From contig JAISKZ010000007.1 in assembly GCA_031260725.1 (NCBI GenBank), positions 1 through 50,351 of the forward strand: a DNA stretch of 50,351 nucleotides, given 5' to 3'. A program made the translations under genes and the position numbers. The DNA is from Desulfovibrio sp. (GTDB lineage Bacteria; Desulfobacterota; Desulfovibrionia; Desulfovibrionales; Desulfovibrionaceae). The notes beneath the pieces were generated by a model that did not search any database, was not told where the DNA came from, and worked only from the letters and a program-made list of their open reading frames with translations. This document shows positions 21,276 through 49,199 of the stretch, piece by piece; the stretch's first letter is position 1, and each line of letters starts with the position of its first letter.

Positions 21276-22931
21276 ATGGCAGATCAGACCGTGGCTGAAG
21301 GCGCTGTATGCGTGAAAAAATGTTGTATAGTCATTCCGGCCGTGAAAAAAAACGCGGTCATTCCGGATCAGCTTGTCAAACGGCTTGCCGGCGTCACGCT
21401 GATTGACCGCGCCATACACACCGCGCGCGCAGTGGCGGCCGGAGTGGATGTTTTTGTTGTCACGGACAGTCAGGAGATAGCGCTTGTCTGTGAACGCTCG
21501 GGCGTTGAATGCCGCCGCAACAGCGCTCTGCGTTTTACAAGCCTGGACATCGTGGCTGAACTGCGCGACGCACTCGCCGAACTGGCCGAACGTTACGAAC
21601 ACTGTCTTATTTTACGCGCCTCCTGTCCCCTGCTGACCTGGGTGGATGTGGAAGACGCATGGAAACAATACTGTGAAGCGCAGGCCGACAGCCTTGTTAC
21701 GGTCAAAAGCGTGCGGCAGCGTATATGGAATGTGCGCGACGGCAGCTTGGAGCGTCTGCTTGACGATGGCATCGGCGAAGAGCAGTTTTTGGTGGAAAGC
21801 CGGGCGCTGATCATTGTGCGTCTCAACCAGCTGCAAGGTGGCGGAACCGGCCACCCCAGGGTTATTCCTTACTTTCTTAACGAACGGGCCATTGAGATTC
21901 AGAGTTACCAGGACTGGTGGATCTGCGAACGCCTGCTGTTGCGGCGGCATCTGGTGTTTGTGGTTGCGGGTTATCCGGCCATCGGCTTGGGACATGTTTT
22001 TCGTGCGCTTATGCTGGCCCATGAGATAAGCAGCCACAAGATTTCCTTTGTCTGCACACGCGGAAGCGAACTCGCCGTGGAGAGTATTGCCCGCAAGGAT
22101 TACCGCATTGTGCGTCAGAACCAGGAGCATCTGGCCGACACGGTGCTTGCGTTGCGTCCTGATATGGTGATCAACGACATATTGAATACTGACGCGCCGT
22201 ATATGGGCCGGCTTGTCTCAGCCGGGGTGTGCTGCGTTAATTTTGAAGACGAGGGGGCCGGCGCTGTTATGGCGGATCTTGTTGTCAACGCGCTCTATGA
22301 AAGCGCCGGGAGCACAGAGCGTCTGCGTTGCGGACCGGAGTATTTTTGTCTGCGGGATGAATTTGTGGGCGCCTGTCGCAATGTGCTGCGGCAGCAGGTC
22401 AAAACCGTGCTCATTACGTTTGGCGGCACAGACTCCAGAGATTTTTCGCGCCGTGTGCTCAGTGTTATTGAGCCGGTCTGCCGGGCGTACAATATAGCCA
22501 TCCGCCTTGTGGCCGGGCCGGGGTATGCTCACAAGGAGGCTATGGAATCCCGTTTGCGGGAGCTTGCCAACCCTCTTGTGGAATTTACCTGGGCCACCAA
22601 TGTGATGAGCCGGATGATGGAAGGAGCGGATCTGGCCGTCTGCTCCGCCGGACGCACCGTGTACGAGCTGGCGCACATGCGCGTGCCGGCCATGGTGGTG
22701 GCCCATCACGAACGCGAAGCCGGCCATGCCTTTGCCCGGCCGCGCAACGGCTTTGCTTTTCTTGGCATTATGGACAACATCAGCGACGCTAAAATCCGCA
22801 ATGTATTTCTGGCCATGCTGAAATACAAACGGAGGGCGCGTTTTTTTGAACGCCAGTCACGACTCGACTTTACCGACAACAAGGCGCGTGTCATCGCTCT
22901 TATGATGCATGCCGCCGGATTGGCGGATTAA
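21276..22931 (+). CDS. Fusion of NeuA-type cytidylyltransferase-like domain and SpsG/PseG-like domain
   Basis: N-terminus CIVIPAVKKNAVIPDQLVKRLAGVTLIDRAI..VVTDSQEIA; C-terminus GYPAIGLGHVFRALMLAHEI..LITFGGTDSRDFSRRVL..ADLAVCSAGRTVYELAHMRVPAMVVAHHE. Confidence 0.75.
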   Translation: MADQTVAEGAVCVKKCCIVIPAVKKNAVIPDQLVKRLAGVTLIDRAIHTARAVAAGVDVFVVTDSQEIALVCERSGVECRRNSALRFTSLDIVAELRDALAELAERYEHCLILRASCPLLTWVDVEDAWKQYCEAQADSLVTVKSVRQRIWNVRDGSLERLLDDGIGEEQFLVESRALIIVRLNQLQGGGTGHPRVIPYFLNERAIEIQSYQDWWICERLLLRRHLVFVVAGYPAIGLGHVFRALMLAHEISSHKISFVCTRGSELAVESIARKDYRIVRQNQEHLADTVLALRPDMVINDILNTDAPYMGRLVSAGVCCVNFEDEGAGAVMADLVVNALYESAGSTERLRCGPEYFCLRDEFVGACRNVLRQQVKTVLITFGGTDSRDFSRRVLSVIEPVCRAYNIAIRLVAGPGYAHKEAMESRLRELANPLVEFTWATNVMSRMMEGADLAVCSAGRTVYELAHMRVPAMVVAHHEREAGHAFARPRNGFAFLGIMDNISDAKIRNVFLAMLKYKRRARFFERQSRLDFTDNKARVIALMMHAAGLAD

Positions 22932-39360: not shown

Positions 39361-40437
39361 ATGATTGAAACTCTTATTGTCACCGGCGGCGCAGGTTTTA
39401 TCGGCTCAGCCCTCATACGCGAGGCGCTTGCCACTGGCCTGCGCGTCGTCAATGTGGACAAGCTCACGTATTCCGGCAACGCCGCGTCTTTCGCGGAGGT
39501 AAAAAACGATCCGCGCTGCCATTTTATACAGGCAGACATTGCAGACGCGGCGGCCATGCGCGCGGTCTTTGAGGTGTTTGCACCGGACGCCGTCATGCAT
39601 CTCGCGGCGGAAAGTCACGTGGATCGCTCCATTGACGCACCTGCCGCCTTTATTGAAACCAACGTGCGGGGAACCTTTGTGCTGCTGGAGGAAGCCCGTC
39701 GCCACGTCAAAAGTCTTGCGGCGGCCGATCCCCAAAAGGCCCGCGATTTCCGCTTCCAGCACATTTCCACAGACGAAGTTTTCGGAGATCTGGTGGACGA
39801 CGGCGGGCTGTTTACAGAAACAACGCCCTACGCCCCGAGCTCGCCCTATGCGGCCAGCAAGGCGGCCTCCGACCATCTGGTGCGGGCCTGGCAGCGCACC
39901 TACGGGCTGCCCGTGCTGGTGACGAACTGCTCAAACAACTACGGCCCACGCCAGTTTCCGGAAAAGCTCATCCCCCTGACCATCCTGAACGCGCTTGCCG
40001 GGCGCGGGCTGCCCGTGTACGGCAGTGGCACGCAGGTGCGTGACTGGCTGTATGTGGAAGACCACGCCCGAGCGTTGCTGCTCGTGCTTGCGCGCGGCAG
40101 TGCGGGAGGTACTTGGAACATCGGCGGCAGAAACAAACAGCGGAATATTGAGGTCGTGCGCGGCGTGTGCGGGATTCTGGAAGAGCTCGCCCCGAAAAAG
40201 CCGCCAGGCGTCAGCCGCTACGAGGAACTGATCCGTTTTGTGGCCGATCGCCCAGGCCACGATGCGCGCTACGCCATCGACGCCGCAAAAATAGAGCGGG
40301 AACTCGGCTGGCGGCCCAAGGAAAACTTTGCGTCAGGACTGCGCAAAACAGTGCGCTGGTATTTGGAAAACCGGCCCTGGTGGCAGGCCGTGCTGGACGG
40401 CAGCTACCGTTGCGAACGCCTGGGCACGAACGTATAA
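39361..40437 (+). CDS. rfbB: dTDP-glucose 4,6-dehydratase
   Basis: [67 protein letters not shown]. Confidence 0.95.
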
Positions 40438-40453
40438 CGCACGGGCCGGCGTT

Positions 40454-41329
40454 ATGAACTATAAAGGCATTATTCTGGCGGGCGGCACAGGCACGCGGCT
40501 GCACCCCATCACGCTCGGCGTGTCGAAGCATCTGCTGCCCATTTACGACAAGCCCATGATTTACTACCCGATGTCGGTACTCATGCTGGCCGGCATTCGC
40601 GAGATACTGGTCATTTCCACGCCTGAAGACCTGCCGCAGTATGAAAAGCTGCTCAAAGACGGCAGCAGCTTCGGCCTTGATCTGCACTATGCCGTGCAGT
40701 CAAAGCCGGAAGGCATTGCCCAGGCCTTTCTGATAGCCGAAGATTTTCTGGCCGCATCGCCTGTCTGTCTTGTCTTGGGCGACAATATCTTTCACGGCCA
40801 GCATTTCACCGAAAAACTGCTCCGTGCCGTGTCTATTGCCGACGGCGCCACCATTTTCGGCTGTATGGTCAAAGACCCTGAACGCTTCGGCGTAATTGCC
40901 TTTGACAGGGCGGGCGCTCCCGCAGCCATTGTGGAAAAACCGGCGTGCCCGCCTTCTTCTTTTGCCGTGACCGGCCTGTATTTTTACGACAGCGCGGTGG
41001 TGGACGTCGCGCGAACCATACGTCCGTCAGCGCGCGGCGAACTGGAGATAACGAGCGTCAACCAGACCTATCTGGAGCGCGGCAGCCTGCGCGTGGAGCG
41101 CCTCGGGCGCGGTTTTGTCTGGCTCGACACGGGCACGTACACAAGCCTTCTGGAGGCGTCGGCCTATGTGCAGACCATTGAGGAGCGCCAGGGGCTCAAA
41201 GTGGCCTGTCTGGAAGAGATAGCCTGGCGGCAGGGTTGGATTAACGACGAGACCATGGAGAATGCCGGGCATTTTTTTGAAAAAACAGACTACGGCAAAT
41301 ACCTGTTGCGGCTTTTGGAAAGGCGCTGA
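40454..41329 (+). CDS. rfbA: Glucose-1-phosphate thymidylyltransferase
   Basis: [45 protein letters not shown]. Confidence 0.96.
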
Positions 41330-41357
41330 TAAACAGGGTTGACACGGGAAACGCCAC

Positions 41358-41903
41358 ATGGAATTCACCAGCCTTGCCCCAAACGGCCCTGTGCTGCTGA
41401 CGCCGCGCGTGCACAGCGACGAACGCGGTTTTTTTATGGAGACATTCCGCCAGAACGAATTTGAGACCCATTGCGGCGCGTGGCTTTTCGTGCAGGACAA
41501 CCACAGCAAATCCCGCGCGGGCGTGCTGCGCGGTATGCACTATCAGCTCGCCAGACCGCAGGGCAAGCTCGTGCGGGTTATCTGCGGGCGCGTGTACGAC
41601 GCGGCTGTGGATATGCGCGCCTCTTCCCCCACGTTCGGTAAAAGTTTTTGCGCTGTGCTGGACGACGAAAACCGCCGGATGTTCTGGGTGCCGCCGGGGT
41701 TCGCGCACGGTTTTCTGGTGCTGAGCCCCGAGGCGGAATTTGTATACAAATGCACAGACTACTACGCGCCGGACGATGAACACTGCCTGCGTTTTGACGA
41801 CCCGGCCCCCGGTATTGTCTGGCCGTTGCCCGCGCGGCAGCTGTTCATTTCCGACAAAGACAGACAGGGACTTTCTTTTGATGGCAGCCCCAAATACGCA
41901 TAA
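41358..41903 (+). CDS. rfbC: dTDP-4-dehydrorhamnose 3,5-epimerase
   Basis: DERGFFMETFRQNEFE, VQDNHSKSRAGVLRGMHYQ, PPGFAHGFLVLSPEAEFVYKCTDYYAP. Confidence 0.94.
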   Translation: MEFTSLAPNGPVLLTPRVHSDERGFFMETFRQNEFETHCGAWLFVQDNHSKSRAGVLRGMHYQLARPQGKLVRVICGRVYDAAVDMRASSPTFGKSFCAVLDDENRRMFWVPPGFAHGFLVLSPEAEFVYKCTDYYAPDDEHCLRFDDPAPGIVWPLPARQLFISDKDRQGLSFDGSPKYA

Positions 41904-42077: not shown

Positions 42078-43484
42078 TCAGGCAGAGTCTTTTTCAAAGG
42101 GCGGCGGCGGCCGCCAGAGCCACAGCAGAGCCAGCAGCGGCGCAAGGCCGGCCAGTTCAGCGACCTCACGCGGCAGAACAAGGCCGGTTCCCCACCACAG
42201 GACGACGCCTGACACGGCTGCGGCGAGCATAAGAATCCACTGGGCGAGTCGCATGGGTCGGATGGCCCACTGAAAAAAACTGACCGTCAGCAACGCAACC
42301 CAAACTTTTGTCACAGTTAAGGAAAGAGCCGCGCCTTCCAGCGGCATGGCCGGAATAAGCGTGCAGCAACAGATGATGTTGACAGCCATGCCGCTCAAAT
42401 AAAAAAAGAGCAGCAGCACATGGCGGCGCATGCCTATCATGGCGTACGCCGCCAGATTGTGCAGAAACGCTGTGGCGAGACAGGGCGTCAGCAGGCGTTG
42501 CGCCGCAACGGCGCCGCTGTAATCCTGCCCGTAGATAAAAGGCAGAAGCCGATCGCTCTCAACACAGATCACAAAAATCATGGGCAGAGAAGCCGCCCAG
42601 AGAGAACGCGCCGTCTGACCTGACAAACGGCAAAACGCAACGCGATCCTCCTTCCACAATTTTGTCAGAATCGGAAAAATCACTTTGCCCAGCAAGGCAC
42701 TTGTCAGCAGAACGGTCAGTCCTTCCACCATTTCCCAGGCCACGCTGTAGCCGCCGACGGCCGTGTCGCCGCCGTAGCGCTTGAGAAAAAAGACGTTAAG
42801 CTTGTTATAGAACATGGCGCAGATGGTCATGCAGGTAAATACAAGACCGCTCTTCATCTGGTGGACAAGATCCATCATGTCCGCAAAACCTATGCGGGCC
42901 AAGGGGTTGCGCCCGAGGGCCAGCGCGGCGGACGCCATGCAGAGCAGCGACTCCACAACCTTGTACAGGGCTATGTATGCCAGCGGCGCATTGAGCAGAA
43001 CGCAGACAATGCCGTACCCGATTCCGACCAGCGCCGTCGGCGCGCGCACGCGCATTTCCATATCCTGCCGGCCGCGGGCCTGACAGAGCGCGAAAAAAGA
43101 TTCGCTCACGCCGTCAAGGCCAAAGCCCGCGGCAATGCACAGGACAATGAAACGCAGTTCCGGCGTGTAGCCCTGCGCGCCGGTCACAGCCCACGCGATG
43201 TACAGGGCCACCAGCAGAAGGCAGAGCTTAAGCCATGTCACTTCCCCGAGCAGGGCACGGGGGCGGCTTTCGCGACGGGCAAAGGAGGAAAGGAGAAAAT
43301 CGTTCAATCCCACGTCAGCCACTGTCTTGACAAGATAGCCGTACGAAAGGGCCAGCATGATCTGCCCGAGCATGTCCTTACTATGACGGGCCAGCAGAAT
43401 GGTAAAAACGGTCCATGCAATATCGCGCGCCCATTGCGCGCCGACAACATAGCCAAGACGCCGCGGTATGCTTTTCAGCTTCAT
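42078..43484 (-). CDS. MOP-superfamily polysaccharide flippase (Wzx-like)
   Basis: 468 aa polytopic protein, Wzx-like N-terminus and TM pattern. Confidence 0.78.
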   Translation of the reverse strand: MKLKSIPRRLGYVVGAQWARDIAWTVFTILLARHSKDMLGQIMLALSYGYLVKTVADVGLNDFLLSSFARRESRPRALLGEVTWLKLCLLLVALYIAWAVTGAQGYTPELRFIVLCIAAGFGLDGVSESFFALCQARGRQDMEMRVRAPTALVGIGYGIVCVLLNAPLAYIALYKVVESLLCMASAALALGRNPLARIGFADMMDLVHQMKSGLVFTCMTICAMFYNKLNVFFLKRYGGDTAVGGYSVAWEMVEGLTVLLTSALLGKVIFPILTKLWKEDRVAFCRLSGQTARSLWAASLPMIFVICVESDRLLPFIYGQDYSGAVAAQRLLTPCLATAFLHNLAAYAMIGMRRHVLLLFFYLSGMAVNIICCCTLIPAMPLEGAALSLTVTKVWVALLTVSFFQWAIRPMRLAQWILMLAAAVSGVVLWWGTGLVLPREVAELAGLAPLLALLWLWRPPPPFEKDSA

Positions 43485-43493
43485 CGCGGCGGG

Positions 43494-44408
43494 TTACCTT
43501 CTCCCGCCGAAATGCACCACGGCCTTAAAGCCGGGCTTGAGGTCCAGATCGGGATTGGACACGCTGAGCTCCACCATGTAATACGACGGATTTGACACAT
43601 TCATGTCGGTGGAAACCCAGGAGATTTCATTGACCGCAGCCGCGAATTTTTTATTGTCCAGCGACGGAATTTCCACTGTCGCATTGTCGCCCACCTTGAT
43701 GCCGGCTATTTCAGCCTCATACACATGCACCTGAATCAGCATAGGATCCAGCCGTCCCACGCGAACGGGAGCGGCACCCGCGTTCAACAGCACGCCCGGG
43801 TTCAGCGTGCCGTCCAGTGCAAGCACATGCCCCTTGATCGGCGAAGTGAGAACAAGCGAAGCCGGCAATTGCTCGCCTTCCCTGACAGGCACGCCGTAAT
43901 AGCCCTCCAGCTCTTGCAGCCGCGCGGCAAAATTGCTTTCTTTCTTGCGAATGGTGCTGCGCAGCAGCTCAATGCGCTGCTGAAGGGAGCGCACGTCGTC
44001 TTCCAGTCTCGCCGAGGCCAGTTTGGATCCCAGGCCCGAATCCGCCAGGTGGCGCGCCTTGTTGCGTTGAGCTGCCATTTCCGCTAGGCGGCGTTCCATC
44101 TCCAGCACCTGACTTCTGGTTTCCTCTGTGCCCGCGCCGGTTGTGACCTCGCGCTGCAAAACGCGTTCAGCCTCTTCCTGCAGATGATAGTGCAGCAGAG
44201 GCGCGCTCTGTTCCACAAGGTCGCCGGGATTGACCAGCACATCGTCCACAATGGCGTTAAACGGCATGGGCACGGCTCGTGTCACGGTGGTCACGACCTT
44301 GCCGGAAAGAATGACGGATGCGGGCTCCGCCGCGCTGCACATCGTTGCAGATGCCGAGAAAAGGCAAAAAAACAAGAGCGGCAAAACAACAGGCAAAACG
44401 TGCGGCAT
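43494..44408 (-). CDS. HlyD-family periplasmic adaptor (membrane fusion protein)
   Basis: Signal peptide, biotinyl-lipoyl-like AIVDDVLVNPGDLVEQSAPLLHY, coiled coil, LTSPIKGHVLALDGTLNPGVLLNAG; ATG overlaps the tolC-like stop (TAATG). Confidence 0.85.
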   Translation of the reverse strand: MPHVLPVVLPLLFFCLFSASATMCSAAEPASVILSGKVVTTVTRAVPMPFNAIVDDVLVNPGDLVEQSAPLLHYHLQEEAERVLQREVTTGAGTEETRSQVLEMERRLAEMAAQRNKARHLADSGLGSKLASARLEDDVRSLQQRIELLRSTIRKKESNFAARLQELEGYYGVPVREGEQLPASLVLTSPIKGHVLALDGTLNPGVLLNAGAAPVRVGRLDPMLIQVHVYEAEIAGIKVGDNATVEIPSLDNKKFAAAVNEISWVSTDMNVSNPSYYMVELSVSNPDLDLKPGFKAVVHFGGRR

Positions 44409-45889
44409 TACAGAACCTCTCCGGCCGGCAGACCCAAAAAACGCTCCTGAAGCAGATTGGCGACATACATCCATTTCAGCGTGGCCAGCTTGTATTTCAG
44501 TTCCGCTTCAATCAGGGCAATGCGCGCCTTTACCATGTCCTCATGGCGGTCGGCGACGGCGGGCAGTTGTTCCGTTCCCTCGGAAAAGGCGATATTGGCT
44601 TCCTTGTACTGCAGTTCGGCTGTGCCAAAACGTGTTTTTGCCAGCTTGAATTCTGTTTCGGCCAGCGTGACATTCTGATCCGCCTGCAGCCATTCGTTGG
44701 AATAGTCCGCCCGTTTGCGCGACAGATCGTGAAAGGCCTGCGCCTTGCTCATACGGGCCGTCTGCACGCCCCGATAACGGTGCCCCCAGTCAAGCAGTGG
44801 AAAATCAAAAGTAAAATGCAAAAACATGTCTTCGGTGCCGCCGGTCGGCTGGTACTGGCCCGCAGGCGGATATTTGCTGATATCCAGACGCATGAGGGGA
44901 AGATACTGCGCCCAGGCCACAATAATGTTGTAGTCCCCCAGCTTGACCTGAGCGCGCAACAAAAGTTCATCTTCGCACGTGGGCCAGCGTGCTTCCCATG
45001 TCAGTTTGCGGCCGTCAAAGCCGGACAGTATACCGTCAACGCTGCCGGTATCCACCTGCAAACGCTGCTGTGGCTCAACGCCGACAAGAATTTTAAGCTG
45101 TGTGCGCTGCATTGTCTCCTGCATGACGGACTGCTCCACAATAAGCCCCAGCTCACGCTCATGCTGCTTTGCCAGATTGAGCGAAACGCCCTGACGGCCT
45201 TCCACAGACTCCACCTGCTGCCAGTAACTGATCAGCTCCCTGCCCAGCGGCAAAAGTTCTTTTTGCGCATTCACAATCTGCTGTCTGGCCTGAAGCTGCA
45301 GATACGCCTGACCTACTTTGTAAATCGCCTCGCCTACGGCCTTGCGGTGCATGGCTATAGCCAGATTGACCATGATTTTTTGCGTCTGGTGTTCAAAATA
45401 TGTAGCCACAGGATTGGGAAAGGCGGCATAAAAACCGAGATCAAATTTTGTCTGCCCGTAATCGCCCGGCGTGTCTTTTGTGTTTGTATTGTACTGTGTC
45501 AGATTATTGGAAACCCTGATCGTCATGCGCGGCTCAGGCAGGTATCTCCAGACGGCGTCTGTCAGCGCCACGCGCTTGATTTCAAGGTTCACCGCGCTGT
45601 TGACCAGCATCGGCGACTGCTGGATAGACAAAAAGACGCAGTCGTCGAAACCGAATATCTTGTTCGGGTCATAGAGATTGGGAACAGCGGCTTCGAGCTT
45701 GGCCTTGTTTTCCACCGGCACGCCGGGGGCTTCGTCCAGCCAGTGCCGGGCGGGAAGTTCTGGAGATTTGCTGCCTGCCTTGTTGGAAGCGCACGCGGGA
45801 AGCAACAGCAAAAGATACAGGAACATCGCCGTAAACAAGCGCGTCTGCCGTGTTGTTAATGTGGGTCGCGCCATCTGGTTACCTGTCAT
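44408..45889 (-). CDS. TolC-family outer membrane efflux lipoprotein
   Basis: Lipobox LLLPACASN; long helical repeats typical of OEP domains; adjacent to HlyD gene; start could be 45889 or 45874. Confidence 0.8.
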   Translation of the reverse strand: MTGNQMARPTLTTRQTRLFTAMFLYLLLLLPACASNKAGSKSPELPARHWLDEAPGVPVENKAKLEAAVPNLYDPNKIFGFDDCVFLSIQQSPMLVNSAVNLEIKRVALTDAVWRYLPEPRMTIRVSNNLTQYNTNTKDTPGDYGQTKFDLGFYAAFPNPVATYFEHQTQKIMVNLAIAMHRKAVGEAIYKVGQAYLQLQARQQIVNAQKELLPLGRELISYWQQVESVEGRQGVSLNLAKQHERELGLIVEQSVMQETMQRTQLKILVGVEPQQRLQVDTGSVDGILSGFDGRKLTWEARWPTCEDELLLRAQVKLGDYNIIVAWAQYLPLMRLDISKYPPAGQYQPTGGTEDMFLHFTFDFPLLDWGHRYRGVQTARMSKAQAFHDLSRKRADYSNEWLQADQNVTLAETEFKLAKTRFGTAELQYKEANIAFSEGTEQLPAVADRHEDMVKARIALIEAELKYKLATLKWMYVANLLQERFLGLPAGEVL

Positions 45890-48800
45890 TGTTGTTAAAA
45901 TTGCTGGAAAATTCCAGATGGAGCACCGTGGCGAGCACACGCCCTTGCGTGTCCGTCACCTGAGCGTCAAAGCGCAAAAGGGAGCCTTCCTCCCACGATT
46001 TGCGCAGCTGCACGAGCCGCCTGCCGTGCACCTGCCCCAAGGCGCCGAAAAGGATGAATCCGGCCGCGTTCAGACGCCACAGCCGCAGAACCGCTGCGAT
46101 TTCCGCCGAAGAGGCGCGCAGTGCGCCGCCGCGCGAGGCGACAGCCAGCCAGGCAGTCTGAACAATTCCCTCCACAATATACAGAATCTCAGTATAGCGA
46201 CTATTTCCTTTTTGAGCAATGCCTTCTTCCGCGGCGGGCATGACTGCCTGATACATATCGTCGGGCAGTGCGGCAAAAGCCGTGATCAGACGCCAGTGCG
46301 CGCCAAGCCCCATGGCGTCGTAGCACGTTGCGGGCACAGCGTTTCCTTCCATGTCCGTTGCGCCGGGCGCGTCCCAGATCGGCGGTGTTGCGGCCGGCGC
46401 CAGCGACATGAGCGCCATGCCGCTGATCACCTCCGCGTTTTTGTCGGTGCGGCGGCCGTTGGTCGTCAGGCAGCGCACGGAAAGAACGGCGCGGCACATG
46501 CGCGTTATGACCCTGTCGTGCAGCATCCAGGGCTGCGCTTTCACGGCAAGACGGCATTCACGAGTGACCCCGGGGGGCAGGAGCGGCGCGTCAAAAAAAC
46601 ACATGTCGGAAAGCCCTGAAACCGTCAACCAGGGGAAAAGCAGCCCCGCCCCTTCCACAATCGCCTGCATGGCGCGGCTTGCGGGAAGACAGGAGATTCC
46701 CGTGTTCATGGCATATTGCGGCGTCAGGCATGTTGAGAGAGCAGGATCGGCAAAACGGGAAAAATGACAGGAGCCGTCGAGAGTGTTGACGGAAGGAGGC
46801 CACAGCGGGCGCGGATTGGGAAAAATGAGGGAAGAAACTTCCGGACGCTCAACAAAGCCGCGCCGGGGCGGTGCGTCGTCGTCGTCAAAAACGTCTTGAC
46901 GCGCCCACAGCACGTTTTCTTCCGTGCCCCGTAAAACCTCCCAAGCCAGCATGTCCCCAAGTTCGTGCCAGCCGACCGGCCTGCCGTCGTCCGCCAGACG
47001 GACAATGCGCGGCACAGCCCCCCCCGCGCGCGCCGAAGCCGCGGCAATCTGTCCGAACCGCGCTACGGCTGGAACGGATAACGCGGACAAGGGAGTCCTG
47101 CGGAAATGCAGGACATAGCGCAGACCGGCGTGCGCAGCCGGACAACGGCATGCTTCAAACAGGGCCATGTCGCAGCTTTCTTCAAGCGCGGCATCTGGAG
47201 GCGAGACAAACAACAGGCCGTCCACCCGCCCCTCGTCTGCGGCAAGCGCCTCAACGGCGGCGCGCGCGGCCTCCGCATCAGGCAGCGCTGCTCCGTCAAA
47301 CGACAGAGACACAAGACGCGAGCCTGCTTTGGCAAGCGACGCGCACTCGTCCAGCATGTCCCCGGGCACGGCAAGCACACAGTCAAGAGGCGCAAGACCG
47401 CTCAAAAGCTGCGGCAGCATTGTCCTGTCAAACACGCAGCAGGCCAGCACATCGCTGCGGCGCAGTGGCGCGCCCCCGCCGCAGGGGTCAGGCGGAAGAA
47501 AAGCCGGAGAGAGGGGCGGCGTTTCATCCGCGTTTTGTTCGCTTGTCCGCAGCGCATAGCGGCACAGAGCCGGCACGGTTCGTTTCCGCGCCGCGCCGCG
47601 TTCTTCGCCCGCAGTGTCAGTTTCGTTCGGCGCGCTCCTTGACGCGTCGGTCTCCCACAGCGCGCGCGCAAGATCTCCCACAGTCGCAACGCCGAGGAGA
47701 CGTTCAAAATGAACGCGTAGACCCAAGTTGTCTTCAATTTCCTGAATCAACAACGGAAAGCGGCTTGAGCGCAACGCGAGATCATAGCGCAGATCAGTTT
47801 CAAGCTTGATTGTTCCCGCCGGACGCCCGCTTGCCTGCGCCAGAATGTCCATCAGCCGGCGCAGCCGCTCCGCGGGCAGGGGCGGCGCTGTGCCTGTCGC
47901 GCATATTGCCGCCTTTTGCGGCGTTGCGTCAAAAGACAGCGCGTCGGTCTGCGCAACAGCAGGCACGGCCTTCCCCGCTCTGGCGTCGGCGCAGGCGCGC
48001 ACAGCGGTGCGCGGCAGAAAACCCAGGGCATACAGCCGGGCGCACGCCTGCTGCATCTGCTCTGTTTCCCTGCTCTTGCGCGCTACGGGCAGACAAAACG
48101 CGTCCGGCGCAATGTCCGTCGTCAAGCTGCAGAGCGTGTCCTGCGGCCCCAGTTCCACAAAATGGCGTATCCCTTCCCGATCCCGCATGCGGCGCACGCA
48201 TTCTGTCCATCGCACGGCATTTTCATCAAGGTCTGTGATAAAGCGGCAGATATCGGGCTGATTTTCTGGGTACAGACCTGCCGTGACATTGCTGAGCATT
48301 TTCAGTCGCGGCGCGCACATTTCAAGGGCATTGAGACGGCGTAAAGAGAGGTCGCGCAAAACGCGCATGGCGGGATGGTGGTAGGCCAGACCGACATTGA
48401 GCATAATAGACGGAATACGCCGCTTCCGCAGGCTCCAGCGGGCTTCCGAGAGCGCTTCGCGCGGTCCGCTGATAATGAACTGCCGCGGCGTATTGTAGTT
48501 GGAAACGACAAGCGCGGGCCAGAGGCCACGCATCTCGTCAATCACGTCGGCTCCGGCGTGCACCGCCATCATGCCGTTTTCACGCGTTGAAGCGGCTTCC
48601 AGTTCGGCCATATGCCGGGCGCGCGTGTCCAGTATGTACCACGCCACTTCCGGCTCATAGACGCCCGCAAAACACAGCGCGATCAGCTCCCCGAGGCTGT
48701 GCCCGCACATAAGGGCAGGCCGTAGCCCCAAAGAGGCCAACTGGCTCCACTGCGCGTATTCCAGCAAAAAAAGATAGGGCTGCTGCCACCGGGTAAGGCT

Positions 48801-49199
48801 TATTTTTTCCACGTCGCGCTCGTCCATCAGCGAGAGCACGTCCCAGTCGGCCACTGCAGCGATGTGATCCATCGCCTCTCTGGCAGCCGGAAAATTGTCG
48901 TACAGTTCACGCCCCATGTGCGGCCACGCGCTGCCGAGACCGCAGCACATCACCGCCGCCGCTGGCGCAGCAGCCTGCGCAAGCCACAGCCCATGCGTTT
49001 CCAGCGCGCTGACGCTCTCCTGCCTGGGGTTCACCCCCAGCACAGTCAGCGCCTCGCGCCAGCGCGGGTTCACGCTCCCGAGCCGCCAATGCCGGCCCGC
49101 ATGTGGCAAATCCACATAGCGCACGCCGTCAAGCGCCAGTTCTTCCGGCGCGCGCGCGTCGCCAGCCGCAACGGATGTATCTTTGACGATATCTGACAT
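45879..49199 (-). CDS. Polyketide-synthase-like multidomain protein: acyltransferase, acyl-carrier-like, degenerate reductase-like and hotdog/DH-like regions; no ketosynthase
   Basis: AT motif MCGHSLGELIALCFAG with AYHHPAM; carrier-like TDLRYDLALRSSRFPLLIQEIEDNLGLRV; C-terminal DH-like region. Confidence 0.75.
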   Translation of the reverse strand: MSDIVKDTSVAAGDARAPEELALDGVRYVDLPHAGRHWRLGSVNPRWREALTVLGVNPRQESVSALETHGLWLAQAAAPAAAVMCCGLGSAWPHMGRELYDNFPAAREAMDHIAAVADWDVLSLMDERDVEKISLTRWQQPYLFLLEYAQWSQLASLGLRPALMCGHSLGELIALCFAGVYEPEVAWYILDTRARHMAELEAASTRENGMMAVHAGADVIDEMRGLWPALVVSNYNTPRQFIISGPREALSEARWSLRKRRIPSIMLNVGLAYHHPAMRVLRDLSLRRLNALEMCAPRLKMLSNVTAGLYPENQPDICRFITDLDENAVRWTECVRRMRDREGIRHFVELGPQDTLCSLTTDIAPDAFCLPVARKSRETEQMQQACARLYALGFLPRTAVRACADARAGKAVPAVAQTDALSFDATPQKAAICATGTAPPLPAERLRRLMDILAQASGRPAGTIKLETDLRYDLALRSSRFPLLIQEIEDNLGLRVHFERLLGVATVGDLARALWETDASRSAPNETDTAGEERGAARKRTVPALCRYALRTSEQNADETPPLSPAFLPPDPCGGGAPLRRSDVLACCVFDRTMLPQLLSGLAPLDCVLAVPGDMLDECASLAKAGSRLVSLSFDGAALPDAEAARAAVEALAADEGRVDGLLFVSPPDAALEESCDMALFEACRCPAAHAGLRYVLHFRRTPLSALSVPAVARFGQIAAASARAGGAVPRIVRLADDGRPVGWHELGDMLAWEVLRGTEENVLWARQDVFDDDDAPPRRGFVERPEVSSLIFPNPRPLWPPSVNTLDGSCHFSRFADPALSTCLTPQYAMNTGISCLPASRAMQAIVEGAGLLFPWLTVSGLSDMCFFDAPLLPPGVTRECRLAVKAQPWMLHDRVITRMCRAVLSVRCLTTNGRRTDKNAEVISGMALMSLAPAATPPIWDAPGATDMEGNAVPATCYDAMGLGAHWRLITAFAALPDDMYQAVMPAAEEGIAQKGNSRYTEILYIVEGIVQTAWLAVASRGGALRASSAEIAAVLRLWRLNAAGFILFGALGQVHGRRLVQLRKSWEEGSLLRFDAQVTDTQGRVLATVLHLEFSSNFNNNDR

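Follow-up and report, generated by a model that had tools for sequence, protein, structure and literature searches.

In Pseudomonas fluorescens MYb115, a PKS paired with an alpha-oxoamine synthase (AOS), PfSgaAB, makes C24-C28 sphinganines, with PfSgaB condensing L-serine with acyl thioesters (acyl-CoAs) (PMC12134224). The capsule lipid clusters rkpA-rkpG-rkpH of Sinorhizobium and wcb of Burkholderia carry a full KS-AT-DH-MT-ER-KR-ACP synthase together with KpsMT-type export, and the heterocyst glycolipid system (hgl PKS genes and DevBCA-HgdD; PMC8277102, PMC11804610) has a full PKS set and the DevCA ABC transporter. Pfa-like secondary-lipid synthases form a further class (PMC3098273), built on a KS-AT-ACPn-KR core with a PfaD-like ER. 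As for export, the tripartite systems described use ABC, RND or MFS pumps, and a 2021 review knew of none assembled with PACE, MATE or SMR transporters (PMC8277102). What, then, are we to make of a PKS-like gene that comes with no ketosynthase (KS) and is followed by export genes with no pump?

The locus in question is a minus-strand operon of four genes at positions 42078-49199 of the window, by which we mean the whole stretch of 50,351 nucleotides that was analysed (Table 1). It encodes a KS-less PKS-like protein (PKSL), a TolC, an HlyD and a MOP flippase. We give about even chances to the reading that these genes form the acyl-loading and export half of a larger Desulfovibrio envelope pathway, nine genes in two operons, in which an AT-ACP loader would feed an AOS. 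The system is conserved and undescribed, a new combination of parts of known kinds; the literature that we searched on Desulfovibrio with AOS, PKS glycolipid or SPT holds no account of it.

Table 1. Genes of the operon and domains of PKSL, in window coordinates
Feature	Position	Strand	Basis
PKSL, KS-less PKS-like protein, 1106 aa, AT-ACP-pseudoKR-degenerate DH	45879..49199	-	ORF, Pfam, NCBIfam, hhalign
AT domain, residues 85-353	48141..48947	-	PF00698 (Acyl_transf_1) E 2.6e-30
ACP domain, residues 448-514, LRSSRFP motif	47658..47858	-	PF00550 (PP-binding) E 1.3e-5
Pseudo-ketoreductase Rossmann domain, about residues 584-771	46887..47450	-	AlphaFold2 model
Double-hotdog DH fold, about residues 806-1099	45903..46784	-	Foldseek vs PDB
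TolC-family outer-membrane factor (OMF), 493 aa from ATG	44408..45889	-	PF02321 (OEP)
HlyD-family periplasmic adaptor, 304 aa, signal-peptide-like N-terminus	43494..44408	-	PF16576 (HlyD_D23), PF13437 (HlyD_3)
MOP-superfamily (Wzx/PST-like) flippase, 468 aa	42078..43484	-	PF13440 (Polysacc_synt_3) E 6.3e-17, PF01943 E 4.1e-12

The genes are packed as the original prediction had them, in number, strand and coordinates: the TolC ATG at 45889 gives an 11-nt overlap with the PKSL gene, TolC and HlyD share TAATG at 44410-44406, and 9 nt separate the end of HlyD (43494) from the start of the flippase (43484). These spacings recur in relatives (the 1-nt TolC/HlyD overlap in 15 of 20, the 9-nt HlyD/flippase gap in 11 of 20), which indicates a conserved operon. 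An HlyD-type adaptor and a TolC-type OMF encoded together are a feature of tripartite efflux and T1SS loci; this TolC, which has a lipobox-like LPAC close to its N-terminus, is one of four OMFs in the source genome, and the idea that it was the sole one is thereby ruled out. Two features of the surrounding window may be recorded here. Genes resembling rmlB, rmlA and rmlC (39361-41903) converge on the flippase end of the operon, with no rmlD identified directly beside them, and a 551-aa protein at 21276-22931 (+), with weak CTP_transf_3 and Glyco_tran_28_C matches, is possibly a fused nucleotide-sugar enzyme within a glycan cluster.

How widely is this arrangement kept? In a class-wide sample, PKSL was found in 67 of 68 genomes of the same genus and in two further genera of the family (g33 and g50). 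A survey of the neighbourhoods of the 1106-aa homologues found TolC, HlyD and the flippase following PKSL in every one of 20 genus loci and in all 37 named loci with enough contig; this strict co-conservation of the four genes answers one anticipated objection, that homologues would usually lack such neighbours. The proposed theme of acyl transfer and envelope export is supported. In most loci of the genus, the flippase shows 68-80% identity. The named PKSL homologues belong to Desulfovibrio or Desulfovibrionaceae, among them D. piger ATCC 29098 and Ca. D. kirbyi, with one exception, L056, a MAG titled just Deltaproteobacteria bacterium. The near relative G118, with 1,410,056 bases in a single contig, has an operon 91-96% identical to that of the source genome, and within those 1.41 Mb both operons, all nine pathway genes, are intact.

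Within PKSL itself, some parts are kept to the residue and others are falling away. In an alignment of homologues, the AT residues Ser168 (GHSLGE), Arg193 and His274 are each invariant (43/43), Arg193 being the malonyl-type position at Ser+25; so are Ser478 of the ACP, the proposed 4'-phosphopantetheine site, and Arg477 before it, which stands in place of the Asp usual in carrier proteins. The rest of the protein is another matter. Modelled with AlphaFold2 (pLDDT 89), residues 535-1106 fold into a Rossmann domain plus a double hotdog, the latter matching PKS dehydratases by Foldseek (e.g., 3kg8, target-normalised TM 0.69), and the DH draws no Pfam match in PKSL; on this model, the architecture is AT-ACP-pseudoKR-DH. 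The KR region is deleted in 8 of the 43 homologues. The position of the catalytic DH His is Cys824 in PKSL, with Glu1010 present; Cys is found in the source genome and in G118, and His is kept in 25 of 43 homologues, so the alignment rules out a family-wide loss.

With AT and ACP residues invariant while KR and DH erode, the most fitting reading of PKSL is a scaffold that carries an AT-ACP loader, not a chain builder. One could go further and suppose that PKSL is vestigial, in a block that does no more than ordinary polysaccharide export; the eroding KR and DH, with the DH His lost in the source lineage, would speak for this. Against it stand those invariant catalytic residues and a gene that is intact in genomes of 1.39-1.6 Mb, and we think it very improbable. 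A second PPTase, Sfp-like, is encoded on contig C44 besides AcpS.

Where might a loader of this kind have come from? The AT-ACP region finds matches inside larger proteins, of about 2400-2600 aa, from the sister genera g14, g19 and g40; these proteins read NMO-KS-AT-ACP-KR-DH by Pfam and match PfaA and PKS_plus_SDR in NCBIfam. PKSL is collinear with residues 1197-2614 of the sister synthase, from AT to DH (hhalign E 1.3e-92), and the RSSR-type motif of its ACP is shared with the ACPs of the sister synthase, three in tandem. The sister KR has the TGGGKG (nucleotide-binding) and SxxxY...N (Tyr/Asn) motifs that the KR of PKSL lacks. PKSL looks, in other words, like a sister-type synthase minus its NMO and KS, the direction of change being taken as loss because KS-AT-ACP-KR is the usual Pfa form. 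Of five sister loci, four have glycosyltransferases and an AsnB homologue close to the synthase, and two have a homologue of the deacetylase-like protein introduced below. In an AT tree, PKSL falls together with the sister Pfa-like synthases and FabD (100/99) while the RkpA-type ATs stand elsewhere, which rules out a truncated RkpA as the origin of PKSL.

If the KS is gone from the protein, it could still be supplied from somewhere else. It had been predicted that the operon holds no KS, and this is borne out: neither PKSL nor its neighbours contain one, and the sole ketoacyl-synt match of the source genome is FabF on contig C10. A PF00109 search of 61 genomes gave a single KS match, of FabF type, in each of G000, G001, G009, G024, G025 and G035. 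Since the full system is carried by G000, G009, G024, G025 and G035 with FabF alone as KS, several complete genomes being among such carriers, a dedicated partner elsewhere, whether a conserved KS or a PfaA, is excluded.

FabF itself might then be the KS in trans. PKSL would then be one part of a split module, with FAS-II enzymes iteratively lengthening its malonyl-ACP into a special long chain that the AOS would later release. The malonyl-type Arg at Ser+25, the position of FabF as sole KS in several carriers and the KS-containing, Pfa-like nature of the sister synthase all lend this some weight. FabF would, however, have to accept an ACP that departs from FAS-II ACPs in its unusual RSS motif, with an invariant Arg ahead of Ser478. 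PKSL's own pseudo-KR and DH, moreover, cannot reduce, so that FabG, FabZ and FabI would be needed too; on balance, we hold the split module to be somewhat unlikely.

A loader needs something to load, and here the four genes turn out to be only part of the story. The partner operon encodes, in order, an AOS, a GT4, a deacetylase-fold protein, a second GT4 and an XrtA-type amidotransferase. In most relatives the AOS is divergent from PKSL: upstream of PKSL in 46 named loci lie a divergent AOS (33), rimM (7, an arrangement seen in the source genome too) or neither (6). In the source genome the five genes stand together and in order on contig C44, unlinked to the PKSL operon; between about a quarter and a third of relatives likewise have the two operons apart. 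A search of 36 same-genus relatives found AOS orthologs (69-95% identity) in 35 of them, as well as in the source genome. The deacetylase-like protein matches CE4 polysaccharide deacetylases in a fold search and has no PDB homologue by sequence search. The original prediction was sound in its theme and gene set and incomplete as a system, missing both the operon of the AOS and glycosyltransferases and the KS-containing form in the sister genera.

Alpha-oxoamine synthases are the family of BioF, Kbl and serine palmitoyltransferase. In a tree that leaves PfSgaB itself outside, the Desulfovibrio AOS nests (100/100) among AOSs beside or fused to type I PKSs, away from Kbl; this clade includes an S. 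meliloti AOS that neighbours an rkpA-like PKS, and another from a capsule-type cluster of Caballeronia. Identity to plasmid-borne AOSs that stand next to type I PKSs or are fused to them is 45-50%, and the PLP Lys, the His and the DEAH-region residues are conserved with Kbl. Among the loci compared (L126:2314-11167 / L147:2581-10179), a Pseudomonas plasmid has a type I PKS and AOS pair beside capsule genes, and in Planktothrix the two are naturally fused, the PKS reading frame containing the AOS region. The partner operon supplies a predicted carbon-carbon bond-forming enzyme other than a KS. The AT and the AOS are of different ancestries, and the PKS/AOS pair is therefore not simply an eroded rkpA/rkpG pair.

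Must the two operons belong together? PKSL might instead be an acyl or malonyl donor that directly decorates the exported glycan, with the AOS operon a parallel lipid pathway. Acyl transfer needs an AT and ACP alone, and the operons are unlinked in 13 of the 46 named loci. Yet AOS and PKSL match almost exactly in distribution, inside and outside the genus, the commonest arrangement has them divergent and adjacent, and the other members of the AOS clade are PKS-coupled; we find direct decoration of the glycan quite improbable. For the two-operon pathway, the genes and their co-conservation, the intact catalytic residues of AT, ACP and AOS, the erosion of KR and DH and the lack of a dedicated KS can all be read in the sequences themselves.

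That leaves the pump. We know of no MOP-HlyD-TolC assembly, and no ABC, RND or MFS pump is co-encoded or co-conserved in the 20 loci read; that none lies inside the operon agrees with what had been predicted. A conventional RND or ABC pump encoded elsewhere could be what HlyD and TolC serve, with the flippase acting alone on a lipid-linked glycan in the inner membrane. Precedent is on its side, described tripartite systems using ABC, RND or MFS and none with MATE having been reported (PMC8277102), and so is an AcrB-type RND gene without an adaptor gene beside it that lies directly downstream of the AOS operon, before ribBA, in the source genome (L107:4318-7419 (-); G000:C44:18320-21418). That gene, however, is split into three pieces in G118 (L193:15717-17565), which keeps all nine pathway genes; it adjoins ribBA in other relatives; several complete carriers have no close ortholog, and carriers such as G017, G025, G005 and G014 show RND matches of only about 45% identity; and the loci read show no pump gene kept along with the block. 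This particular RND is not a convincing candidate for the missing pump, and with it falls the other objection that had been anticipated, a canonical pump co-conserved elsewhere; a conventional pump elsewhere is, to our minds, a lesser possibility that still deserves a hearing. As to the flippase, it may dock on HlyD/TolC and so form a flippase-HlyD-TolC conduit. The boldest version, in which the MOP flippase is the inner-membrane partner of HlyD/TolC genus-wide and exports a glycosylated amino-lipid from a KS-less PKS remnant loading an AOS, strikes us as unlikely.

The chemistry, product, order of steps and transport route that we infer for the two-operon pathway are as follows. The Sfp-like PPTase would activate the ACP of PKSL, and the AT would load an acyl or malonyl unit on it, any elongation being assigned to FAS-II enzymes because FabF is the sole KS. 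The AOS would condense the acyl thioester with an amino acid, for which serine is the best guess, to a 2-amino-3-keto lipid. Building and trimming a short glycan would fall to the pair of GT4 enzymes together with the CE4-fold deacetylase-like protein and the XrtA-type amidotransferase, after which the flippase would turn the glycolipid over and HlyD/TolC would carry it to the outer membrane. Several things count against this scheme. The malonyl-type AT Arg suggests that long acyl chains may not be loaded; a ketosphinganine reductase (SDR) is absent from the conserved set, unlike in rkp and sga clusters; and the operons are unlinked in the source genome and some relatives.

If the two-operon pathway is real, nearly all Desulfovibrio, from gut species such as D. 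piger to symbionts of protists whose genomes have shrunk to 1.4 Mb, would make an undescribed surface amino-lipid or glycolipid. That is, PKS/AOS lipid synthesis would extend to a system without a ketosynthase of its own, a megasynthase would be seen clearly reduced to an acyl loader, and whether a MOP flippase drives an HlyD-TolC conduit would become testable. Retention of the genes in reduced termite-gut symbionts that lost several LPS genes (PMC7608387) suggests an envelope role that is hard to drop.

Set beside PfSgaAB, the Desulfovibrio set has a PKS-type protein with an AOS of the PKS-coupled clade and a proposed sphingoid-type product. It differs in having no KS-bearing, iterative chain-building PKS (just the AT-ACP residues of PKSL are invariant) and no counterpart that we could find of the reductase SgaC, and it adds glycosyltransferases, the deacetylase-fold protein, the amidotransferase and the flippase with HlyD and TolC. 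With the rkp and wcb clusters it shares an AOS of the same clade and an envelope-glycan context; a full RkpA-type synthase and KpsMT-type ABC export are lacking, with no KpsMT in the conserved set. Some Desulfovibrio (L115:6056-18427, L116:5657-18123) do have a locus resembling those clusters, with a full KS-AT-DH-MT-ER-KR-ACP synthase, a paralogous AOS, OPX, KpsM, KpsT and a Wzz-like gene; it is separate, and the KS-less system thus exists alongside the classical one. Pfa-like synthases resemble PKSL in the collinear stretch and the ACP motif, whereas PKSL lacks the full Pfa core, with no NMO or KS, one ACP instead of three and a dead KR, and is partnered by the AOS and TolC/HlyD/flippase instead. 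The closest functional precedent is DevBCA-HgdD export of heterocyst glycolipids: it has in common with the proposed pathway a PKS-derived lipid, glycosylation and an HlyD-type adaptor with TolC, and where the heterocyst has DevCA and its full PKS set, Desulfovibrio has a MOP flippase.
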